Part shown: in pieces, positions 7,579-26,845 of the stretch | Position numbering within the stretch: position 1 is the first letter of the stretch | How the letters are laid out: each line of letters opens with the position of its first letter | IMG/VR virus record: IMGVR_UViG_3300042946_000375 | Span: 1 to 28,681 of that record | Length of the DNA: 28,681 bases | Reading direction: 5' to 3' (one strand) | DNA from: a virus | Program-made: the position numbers and the translations under genes | Notes under the pieces: model-generated | The model's input: the letters and a program-made list of their open reading frames with translations, nothing else | What the model was told of the DNA's origin: nothing | The model's database searches: none

Positions 7579-10500
7579 ATGGCAAAGAAAATAACCAAAG
7601 ATGAGATATTTGAGAAAGGATTACTTTCGGACGTTATCAAAGATGCGAACGAGGCGATTCAGGTATTTGATAAATTAGATACTGAGTTGCTAAAAGTATC
7701 AAAATCTTACAAAGCTATTATTGATAATTCAAGTAAGAACTCAAAAGGTTCAATTACTGAGTTAATAAACGCATCTAAGCAACTTAATCAAATTACTGAA
7801 CAAACTGTATTGATTGAAAAAGAAAAGTTAAAGGTTGACCAACAATTACGCATTTCCAAAAAAGAGCAACTTTCTGCAGAACAAAGTTTGCAACGCCAAC
7901 GTGAAAAAGGTATTGCACAAATGGAACGTGAAGCTAGAAAAGTAGCAGAAGAGGAACGACCATACAACAAAATGAGCGCAACGTTAAACGATTTGCGTAA
8001 AAAATACAAAGATTTAGCTGTTTCTGGAAATGAAAATACAGCCAGCGCTAGAGCAATGAAACGTGAAATTGATTCCCTGGATAAAACTTTGAAAAAAGCA
8101 GATGGATCAGTTGGGCAATTTCAAAGAAATGTAGGTAATTATCCACAAACATTTAAAGCAATTGGATCAGCACTTAGTCAATTAGGATTAGCATTTGGAG
8201 TATTTTCAACAATTCGTGGTATTGCAGAAACAGAGATTAAATTACAATCTTTGCAATTGGCACTTAAAAATGTCATGGGAACGCAAGAAAGATACAATCA
8301 GTCGTTTTCTTTCTTATCCAAACTTTCACGTGATTACGGGCAAGATTTAACGGTTTTGGTTGATACCTACAAAGGATTTATTGCAAGTTCGGAAAGTTCA
8401 AATTTGAGTTTAGAAGCTAGAAATAAAATCTATGAATCTGTTATTAAATCAGGTTCAAGTTTAGCACTTTCAAACGATCAGATACAAGGTTCACTTTTGG
8501 CAATTTCTCAAATGTTTTCAAAAGGTACGGTTTCAGCCGAGGAATTAAGAGGTCAACTTGGCGAACGTTTGCCAGGGGCATTTGGAATCATGGCTAAATC
8601 AATTGGTGTTTCTGAATCCGAACTTGGTAAAATGATGCAGAAAGGCGAAGTAATGGCAAAAGATGTATTGCCGAAATTCGCTGAGGAACTTGAAAAAACT
8701 TTTGGAGCAAATGCAAGTAAGAATTTAGAAACTATTGGCGGTGCTTGGAATGTTTTACAAACTGAAATTTCACTTTACATAAATGAAGCCAACAAAGGCG
8801 GTGCAATTACAAAACAGATAGCTGGAGCGATTAGTTTTCTAGCGAATAATATTGATACAATTGTTTCAGTACTTGGAAAAGCAATAAAAGCATGGATTAC
8901 TTTTAAAACAGTGATGTATGCATTGAATTTAAAAGAGCAAATTGGTAATTTTTCAAATTTAAAAGGTAAAATTTCAGATACAGCAACAAGTTTTAAAGAT
9001 GCTGAATCAAATGCTAAAAAGTTTGGACAATCTATAAAATCAATAGGCTGGACTGCTTTAATTGGAGCTGTTTCAGAATTAGCAATGAGTCTTTATGATG
9101 TTGCAAATGGATATGATGTAGCTAAAAAAAGAGCTGAATTATTTGCTAAATATCAAAAATTTGCAGAATTACAATCTAATAAAAATATAGAGTCTATTCA
9201 AGATGAAATTGATGCAAATGATAGAATGTTAAAATCTAAAATAGCTACTGGAGAAATTACACAAAAACAAGCGTTAGACTTACAACAACAATTTTTAACA
9301 AAAAAACAATTTGCAAAAGAAGAATCAGATTTTGAAACAAGAACAAATAAAGTAGTTTATAAATCTAGATTAGATTTAGTAAGAGATTTAATCGCTGAAG
9401 AAATAAGACGTAAAAATTTATCAAAAGCATATATTAAACAACTTGAAGAAGAATCATTTAAAAATAGATTTGCAATAGCAGATGAAGAAGCTAAAATTGA
9501 TGCTTCAAATGTTAAAATTAAAGCTTATCATGCATTTTTTGAGGTACTTGAAAGTACTAATAATTCTTTAATAGATGAATCAAACGAACTTAAAAAAACA
9601 ACAAAAGAAACAAAAGAAAAAACTAAAGCAATTGAAGACTATACAATAAGAGTAAAAGAATTACAAAACGCTAGAATAGTAGATGACCAACAAAGAAAAA
9701 CTGCTGAATTAGAGTTAAAATATACTACTGATTTAGCTAGTATTAAAGGCGATGGAATAAAAGCAAATGAATTACGAATTGAACTTGAAAAACAATATTT
9801 ATCAGATTTGAAAGATTTACAAGTTGAGTTTGATAAAATTAGAAATGAAGAAAACGATAAGAAAATAAAATTTATCAATGACCAACATTTACTTGATATT
9901 GAAAATCAAATTCAAGCTAAGGAAATTGAAATGCAAACTGAATTAAATAGTGCAGATTCAGAAAAGGAAAAATACAATATTCGTAAAGTTTATGGAGATG
10001 AATTAAGAGCATTAAAAATTAAGCAACTTGAAGAACAAAAAAGAATTGAGTTGCAAAACTATGAATTGACTGAAAAGGAAAAATTATCTATTCAAGAAAA
10101 ATATGATTTAGAAATTCTAAAATTAAAAGAAGGTACTATTCAAGATGGCGAAGATTTAGATAAAAATGCACTTGAAAAAGAAAAGAAACGCTTAGAAGAA
10201 ATGCGTAATTTCAGACGGCAAATATTTAATGAGTTGTTAGATGAATTGAAACGTCAATCTGAAGCTAGAGAAAGTCAATACGACAAAGACATACAAACGC
10301 AAAAAGATTTCCAAAGCCAATTACAAGCGCAAGCCAACGCTGGAAATATTACAGCTCAACAATCAATTGCTCAATCCATAGAAGCTGAGAAAAAAGCTAC
10401 AATTGAGAAAGCAAAAGAGCAAAAGAAACAACAACAAATTGAGGATATCAAAACGCTTTACAATTTGATCAATCAAAACATTGATAAAGGGGATAACGCT

Positions 10501-25188: not shown

Positions 25189-25476
25189 ATGACAATACAA
25201 CAAAAAGACGACTTAGCGCACATAGTAATGGCAACAATGCAACTGCAAAGCGCAATTCATACCCTAGACAAAGTAACTGGAGAGGGCAACAAGTTTAAGC
25301 AGCTTAAAAAGAAAGAGTGGAATCAGTTTATTCACTACGTTCAAAAGTTCACGGCAAAGCATGAGATTGAACTTTACGATTTAACCGCCAAGTTGCCAGA
25401 CCAAACGCAAAATTACATTGACTGCGTTAACGAGTTTGATAAAATTGCCGAAGAAATGAAAGTAATTATACCGTGA
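25189..25476 (+). CDS. Hypothetical 95-aa helical protein
   Basis: Almost entirely helical and charged (HIVMATMQLQSAIHTLDKVT, then KKKEWNQFIHYVQKFTAKHE). No family recognised. It is the last gene before early promoter 4 and the structured leader of the HNH gene. Confidence 0.5.
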   Translation: MTIQQKDDLAHIVMATMQLQSAIHTLDKVTGEGNKFKQLKKKEWNQFIHYVQKFTAKHEIELYDLTAKLPDQTQNYIDCVNEFDKIAEEMKVIIP

Positions 25477-25491
25477 TTAGAAAGTAATTTG

Positions 25492-25499
25492 TATATTTG
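25492..25499 (+). promoter_or_regulatory. Early promoter 4, -7 box (HNH gene)
   Basis: TATATTTG followed by CTGAAC, which departs from the other early promoters only after the GAA. No clear -33 TTG. Transcription would begin near 25505, a few bases ahead of the pseudoknot stems, so the structure would form the very 5' end of the transcript. Confidence 0.6.
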
Positions 25500-25509
25500 C
25501 TGAACAGAA

Positions 25510-25586
25510 GGGTGAGAACTTCAGGAAATTTTATTGAAAAGCTAGCATGAAAAGGTAATCTCACCCACCTTGATTGCTGGCTTTTC
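25510..25586 (+). ncRNA. Pseudoknot-forming leader RNA upstream of HNH gene
   Basis: Two long stems interlock. Stem 1: GGGTGAGA (25510-25517) with TCTCACCC (25559-25566), eight perfect pairs. Stem 2: GAAAAGCTAGCA (25536-25547) with TGCTGGCTTTTC (25575-25586), 12 pairs including one G-T. The 3' strand of stem 1 lies inside the loop of stem 2, which defines an H-type pseudoknot. A shorter alternative, AAGGT (25552-25556) with ACCTT (25567-25571), partly competes. The structure starts about 10 bases after the promoter and ends 18 bases before the HNH start codon. A translational control element, a metabolite sensor or a small RNA are all possible. No known family was recognised. Confidence 0.65.
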
Positions 25587-25604
25587 GCATTTAAAGTAAT
25601 TAGT

Positions 25605-26102
25605 ATGGAATGGAGAGATGTTAAAGGTTATGAAGGTAGATATGAAGTTTCTGAAAATGGAGATTTAAAATCTATATTAAAAAGCGGTTCTGAAAAAAAA
25701 TTAAAAGGTAGCATAAGTAAAGAAGGGTATAGGCAATTTACTTTAAATTGGGGCGAAGAAAATAAGCGTAACACTTATACAGGTCAACAGTTAGTTGCAA
25801 TGTCATTTTTAGGTCATATTCCTAATTCAACAATTGGATATGTAGTTGACCATATTAATGATAACAAATTAGATAATAGAGTAGAAAATTTAAGGTTAAT
25901 TAGTAACCATGCAAATGGAATAAAAAGACTAAATAAAAATCAATTATTTGGAGTAACGAAAAAACCAAATGGCAGATGGCACTCAAAAGTTTGGCACTTA
26001 AATAAAACCATTTATTTAGGAAGTTATAATACAGAAATTGAAGCACATTTAAAATCTGTTGATTACCTTAAAAAAAACAATATTAAAAGAATAATTTATT
26101 AA
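25605..26102 (+). CDS. HNH homing endonuclease (NUMOD4-HNH-AP2 type)
   Basis: 165 aa with three parts. Residues 1-48 (EWRDVKGYEGRYEVSENGDL) are a NUMOD4 module. Residues 78-104 hold the HNH core, VDHINDNKLDNRVENLRLIS, with His83 and conserved Asn. Residues 115-157 resemble an AP2 DNA-binding module (GVTKKPNGRWHSKVW, then LGSYNTEIEA). Homing endonucleases of this type nick a defined site and spread into related genomes. Free-standing here, AT-rich (23-30% GC in lines I counted), and with its own promoter and structured leader; not an IscB-type guided nuclease. Confidence 0.92.
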   Translation: MEWRDVKGYEGRYEVSENGDLKSILKSGSEKKLKGSISKEGYRQFTLNWGEENKRNTYTGQQLVAMSFLGHIPNSTIGYVVDHINDNKLDNRVENLRLISNHANGIKRLNKNQLFGVTKKPNGRWHSKVWHLNKTIYLGSYNTEIEAHLKSVDYLKKNNIKRIIY

Positions 26103-26104
26103 TC

Positions 26105-26845
26105 ATGGCTGAGGGTAAAAAATCAGTTTTGTTGTATTGTGATTTAATTCACACCATCGAAAAGATGGACGACGAAACAGCAGGAAAGTTTTTTAAGCAT
26201 TACTTGAGGTACATAAACGACTTAAATCCAGTCGCTGAAAATATTATCATTGATTTGACATTTGAACCCGTGAAACAAAACCTAAAAAGGGATCTATCTA
26301 AATGGGAAAGTAGAGCAGATAAGAGCAGAAATAATGGAAAATTAGGGGGTAGACCAAAGAAAGAAGAAACCCAAAAAACCAAGCAGGTTATTTCAGAACC
26401 TAAAAAACCTGTTAAAGTAACAGTTAATGTAAATGATAATGTTAATGTAAAAGATAAAGTAAGTAATTCTCTTATGTCCGAAATTGAAATTTCAGACGTC
26501 CCACAAAATGAAATTGATTATTTTAATGTTGCCAATGCTTTTTTCCAACTATTCCAACAGAACGCAATTGATTTAGATGTGCGCTGGGTACACCTAGACA
26601 AACTTACTTATAAAAGATGCGTAACACCTATTCGATTACTTGCAACAAGCGACAACCGAACACGCGACGAAATGCTTTTAGTTTTTGACTTACTGAAAAA
26701 AGATTTATTTTGGAAACAGAATATTCAGTCAACTGAAAAACTTAGAGAAAAATTCGATCAATTAATCACTAAAGCACAAAACTATGGCAAAACAGACAAA
26801 CGAGTTACAAACGAACCGTACGACCTTAGTTGTTTCGACGACTAG
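26105..26845 (+). CDS. Probable replication protein (DUF6291-like)
   Basis: 246 aa. The N-terminal part (VLLYCDLIHTIEKMDDETAG, then FFKHYLRYIN) matches the DUF6291 outline used by many Bacteroidetes phage replication proteins. About residues 77-90 hold SRNNGKLGGRPKK, the hallmark linker, then a low-complexity VNVNDNVNVKDKV segment and a helical C-terminal domain. Such proteins probably act in initiation, similar to DnaD-type initiators or loaders. It is followed by an overlapping small gene; the function is inferred. Confidence 0.65.
   Translation: MAEGKKSVLLYCDLIHTIEKMDDETAGKFFKHYLRYINDLNPVAENIIIDLTFEPVKQNLKRDLSKWESRADKSRNNGKLGGRPKKEETQKTKQVISEPKKPVKVTVNVNDNVNVKDKVSNSLMSEIEISDVPQNEIDYFNVANAFFQLFQQNAIDLDVRWVHLDKLTYKRCVTPIRLLATSDNRTRDEMLLVFDLLKKDLFWKQNIQSTEKLREKFDQLITKAQNYGKTDKRVTNEPYDLSCFDD

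Follow-up and report, generated by a model that had tools for sequence, protein, structure and literature searches.

A covarying, pseudoknotted leader RNA at the head of the replication module in phages of Flavobacteriia

The window analysed here is a 28,681-base Bacteroidota phage record (IMG/VR IMGVR_UViG_3300042946_000375), and the region of interest lies on its plus strand. It opens with a -7 promoter box of the Bacteroidota type, TATATTTG, at 25492-25499. Helix A (4 bp) is formed by GAAG (25507-25510) and CTTC (25519-25522), and the loop of this small hairpin holds GGTGAGA (25511-25517), the 5' strand of helix B. The 3' strand of helix B, TCTCACC (25559-25565), lies inside the loop of a second hairpin, C/D, making helix B a pairing between two loops. 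Hairpin C/D consists of helix C, in which GAAAAGCTAGCA (25536-25547) pairs with TGCTGGCTTTTC (25575-25586) through 12 bp, one of them G-U, and helix D, in which AAGGT (25552-25556) pairs with ACCTT (25567-25571) through 5 bp. With a predicted energy of -22.8 kcal/mol and a short U4 tract the hairpin resembles a terminator. Behind this structure lie a NUMOD4-HNH homing endonuclease gene (25605-26102; Pfam NUMOD4 and HNH_3) and a replication gene (26105-26845) with a DUF6291 N-terminus and profile matches to DnaD-like helicase loaders and O-like initiators. From profiles and synteny, the latter is likely to have been the original first gene behind the leader.

An earlier note on this DNA had described stems of 8 and 12 pairs, interlocked in H-type topology between the promoter and the HNH start codon and ending 18 bases before the ATG. 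We confirmed the interlocked pseudoknot at 25492-25604, with the strand order B5'-C5'-B3'-C3' that defines the H-type and 18 nt between the 3' strand of helix C and the ATG at 25605. The interlocked energy of helices B and C was -39.1, whereas 100 dinucleotide-shuffled sequences gave -19.1 +/- 2.5 and never equalled it (z = -8.0), and this was the strongest of all promoter-anchored knots in the record, the runner-up reaching -28.5. Two details of the earlier description required revision. Stem 1 had been drawn as 8 bp, GGGTGAGA (25510-25517) with TCTCACCC (25559-25566), and we assign its first G to helix A instead, giving helix B 7-8 bp depending on this choice; helix A itself, conserved in the subtype of the window, had been overlooked in a knot described as two stems. 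Plain nested folding of the window returned helices C and D without helix B, so that comparison with relatives was needed to test the knot.

Among the leaders of NUMOD4-HNH homologues in viral contigs, more than 30 were found to repeat the interlocked layout behind a TATATTTG-type box, with stem sequences that largely differ; about fifteen HNH relatives have no leader and lie directly behind another gene. Further relatives were sought over viral contigs with a pattern of the conserved junctions and a structure descriptor, and the descriptor scan placed a promoter box at 126 of 502 unique hits as against 34 of 517 in reversed sequence. A covariance model built from 44 sequences on helices A, C and D alone collected 93 sequences, which make up the alignment of type I, a sister subtype to that of the window. 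Over the four helices of this alignment 97.6% of 2496 cells were paired and double changes occurred at 26 of 28 pairs. The covariation score was 0.747, whereas shuffles gave 0.193 and slid controls, whose pairing dropped to 36-44%, did not exceed 0.106. Helix A covaries in type I, and helix B, although left out of model building, was 98.9% paired with double changes at 6 of 8 pairs, while the homologue of helix C was 96.5% paired with double changes at all 10 of its pairs. Helix D was 97.9% paired and covaried at every pair, and so forms alongside B and C. The earlier note had suggested that helix D could be an alternative state, making a switch; being compatible with B and C and covarying, it belongs to the same fold.

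The type-I model does not recognise the divergent subtype of the window, for which eleven relatives were gathered by a targeted scan and from earlier loci. In the resulting alignment of 12 sequences helix B was 100% paired with double changes at 4 of 7 pairs, and helices A and D were nearly invariant and hence uninformative there on covariation. These comparative data show a four-helix fold by covariation, and neither a loss of the stems nor a lack of covariation, which the earlier note had named as refuting, was seen.

The genes behind the leader vary. The same RNA precedes replication-type genes (DUF6291, DnaD-like and others), ParB-like genes, small ORFs and HNH genes, in the order promoter, knot, optional HNH gene or small ORF, and replication gene. 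In one relative (L361) a leader 83.5% identical to window positions 25465-25591 is followed directly by a DUF6291 gene with no HNH gene between them, and this is the gene that comes after the HNH gene in the window. A second group of phages gives the same picture: one (L187) has no insert, four (L102, L026, L051 and L030) carry an HNH gene and another (L186) carries a different small ORF, with leaders 90-93% identical, replication genes 96-98% identical and homology that breaks cleanly at the start codon. Both empty-site comparisons indicate that the leader is part of the replication operon and that the slot behind it takes insertions, and they show that the HNH ORF of the window was inserted in this way, separating the leader from the replication gene. 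The RNA is the leader of the phage replication module, its link to HNH genes being secondary. A leader specific to HNH genes was rejected on the grounds that the same RNA stands before other genes and that the empty-site phages L187 and L361 keep it. What survives of the earlier homing-endonuclease leader is the promoter-proximal knot, kept and covarying, and what falls is its restriction to HNH genes, as replication-initiator and other early genes have the same RNA.

Subtypes II to IV occur mainly with NUMOD4-HNH genes, and subtype II almost only with HNH genes. In Polaribacter phage P12002L an HNH gene among structural and tail genes has a promoter-knot leader of its own (2880-2988), which suggests a mobile cassette of leader plus HNH gene; together with the preference of subtype II, this indicates that a leader of this kind can also move along with an HNH gene. 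One subtype II leader (L285, about 9300-9420, minus strand) precedes a 221-aa ORF whose start is unlike that of NUMOD4-HNH proteins.

We identified the knot before replication, HNH or other early genes in eleven named phages (z = -2.9 to -7.8), namely Cellulophaga phages phi19:3, phi13:2 and phi18:3, Flavobacterium phages elemoA, tooticki6-1, lillamy9-1, 11b and FCV-1, Polaribacter phages Danklef_1 and P12002L, and Olleya phage Harreka_1. Across several genera and families of phages that infect Flavobacteriia, including at least eleven cultured phages, a strongly covarying RNA stands at the front of the replication module. Four phage records outside this group that have homologous replication genes (Vibrio phages 1.182.O and 199E37-1, Dulem virus 31 and a faecal phage record) lack it. 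Searches of whole records found mostly a single type-I copy per phage of roughly 30 kb, and six records (L166, L058, L081, L301, G008 and G012) have a second knot of another subtype before a different gene. Under strict filters the type-I model, which misses the subtype of the window, had 0 matches in 150 Flavobacterium and 395 Bacteroidota genomes, and a host riboswitch was set aside on this basis. The search of Bacteroidetes genomes proposed earlier thus returned no type-I match, and the covarying homologues come from phage records, to which the type-I model is restricted among the records searched.

The window and nine relatives had no Rfam match above the curated gathering thresholds, the best sub-threshold hits lying far below, in keeping with the earlier impression of an unrecognised type of structure. 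A literature search for a description of such an RNA found none. The pistol ribozyme resembles the RNAs described here in that the loop of one hairpin pairs with a strand enclosed by another; unlike it, these RNAs have no third hairpin after the pseudoknot strand and no Rfam match. The widely conserved phage RNA is real and apparently undescribed.

The surroundings of the type-I knot bear on what it might do. Of 91 type-I relatives, 82 have a promoter box in the 60 nt upstream, where 8.5 were expected, and the distance from the end of the box to helix A is 4-7 nt in 83 of 92, which, given the promoter spacing usual in Bacteroidota, suggests a transcription start close to the first base of the knot. 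At the other end, a U-run of at least 5 follows helix C in 86% of type I compared to 3.8-5.7% of local or shuffled controls, and hairpin C/D has a mean energy of -15.1 kcal/mol. Promoter boxes are depleted between the knot and +120 (1 against 14.5 expected), suggesting that the genes behind it need read-through; a gene starts on the same strand within about 30 nt of the knot in nearly every case. Type-I leaders, in short, as a rule place a promoter and a terminator-like hairpin with U-run before the first gene, with few promoter boxes behind them, the window having U4 only.

The best reading of these features, to which we give a probability of about one half, is that the RNA is a pseudoknotted intrinsic terminator, an attenuator gating the replication genes. 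Transcription would start within a few bases of helix A, hairpins A and C/D would form, and their loops would pair as helix B to give an A-B-D-C knot of about 85-95 nt. Hairpin C/D, as a rule with its immediate U-run, would act as the intrinsic terminator, its large loop closed by D and tied by B to the 5' hairpin. Some transcripts would stop there as short RNAs; others would read through this point, which lies about 20-30 nt ahead of the first start codon, and so allow expression of the replication genes and, in the window, of the inserted HNH gene. That termination occurs and is regulated is our inference from this arrangement. The U-run and strong C/D hairpin, the depleted downstream boxes, the lack of antisense enrichment and the low complementarity of the tail to the knot together point to an attenuator more than to hiding of the start codon or control by antisense RNA. 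With its U4 the window may terminate weakly, and the missing U-run after the 3' strand of helix C in P12002L and in type II leaders indicates that not every member of the wider class would terminate. Antiterminator pairing between knot and tail was not seen in type I, where complementarity is below chance. The unpaired bases AUA, UGAA, AA and GGAU are conserved in type I and would be superfluous for a bare terminator, which suggests a role in binding or tertiary contacts. A broader and less probable proposal is that these leaders form an undescribed phage RNA class that would use a loop-tied, pseudoknotted terminator, and no dedicated protein, to influence RNA polymerase or termination, as a standard control of the replication switch in Bacteroidota phages. 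The knot offers a directly testable entry to replication timing in these phages and possibly a new way to build a regulated terminator.

The same conserved unpaired bases, and the position before the replication module, would also fit antitermination, in which the knot, as it emerges, would bind RNA polymerase so that the enzyme resists pausing and termination in the replication operon without a protein factor. HK022 putL, a structured RNA of about 70 nt, likewise opens an early phage transcript and is of similar size, and putL and putR also lie near replication or early genes (PMC9378689). In position and size put RNA, which antiterminates in cis through the zinc-binding domain of the RNA polymerase beta' subunit, is the closest alternative. 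The put RNAs, however, are two stem-loops whose copies are alike in sequence, and a pseudoknot is not mentioned in that paper (PMC9378689), whereas the RNAs described here have four interlocked helices ending in a U-run of their own, stems that vary freely between phage groups, other hosts and another promoter type. We consider put-like antitermination unlikely. Free variation of sequence with the topology kept would suit a structure that ties up the 5' end of the mRNA and blocks decay that depends on it, as would a helix A 4-7 nt past the box, which leaves little or no single-stranded 5' end; such protection would leave the U-run in 86% and the conserved junction bases unexplained, and appears decidedly unlikely.

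The earlier note had invoked phage T4, in which the mRNA leaders of homing endonucleases hide the translation start. Here too a structure lies between promoter and endonuclease start, but replication genes have the knot as well, no start codon lies within it and the HNH gene is an optional neighbour. The region past the type-I knot is poorer than chance in 7-mers complementary to the knot (20 against 33.6), which speaks against T4-style hiding, and occlusion of the start codon was rejected on this depletion and on the 18-nt gap that separates knot and ATG in the window. More generally, the knot could govern how ribosomes reach the first start codon, a role that pseudoknots have in some plasmid replication-gene leaders. 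Among such leaders the references in PMC10724649 include the pseudoknot leaders of ColIb-P9 repZ and IncL/M repA and the attenuator of pT181 repC. The likeness to the systems listed there is a replication-gene leader with a loop-loop pseudoknot (as in ColIb-P9 repZ) or a terminal attenuator. Those leaders are controlled by antisense RNA, whereas reverse promoter boxes over type-I leaders are not enriched (8 against 8.6 expected, TAnnTTTG type only), and antisense control was rejected for this reason. Repeated stem strands near the start codon in some subtypes would favour translational control, and the low complementarity of the type-I start region weighs against it; as an account of these leaders we regard it as improbable. 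A promoter and terminator that tightly flank the RNA might also mark a separate trans-acting small RNA with an incidental downstream gene, which is very improbable given a same-strand gene within about 30 nt nearly always and the stable linkage to replication genes.

In L058 (1637-1780) and L062 (about 1880-2001) the helix B 5' strand (ACGTCGAA; ATACGG) recurs at the HNH start codon, so that the B 3' strand could pair with either copy, a possible translational switch in those subtypes. In subtype II leaders such as those of L053, L045, L060 and L088, two tandem copies of the C 3' strand (for example TTTAAACGC) immediately precede the HNH start codon, and both are able to pair with the C 5' strand. 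Elsewhere in the window, a portal-protein match (phrog_12, 602-1849) lies on the minus strand among terminase and head genes on the plus strand, a reversal that would represent an inversion or an unusual gene order.
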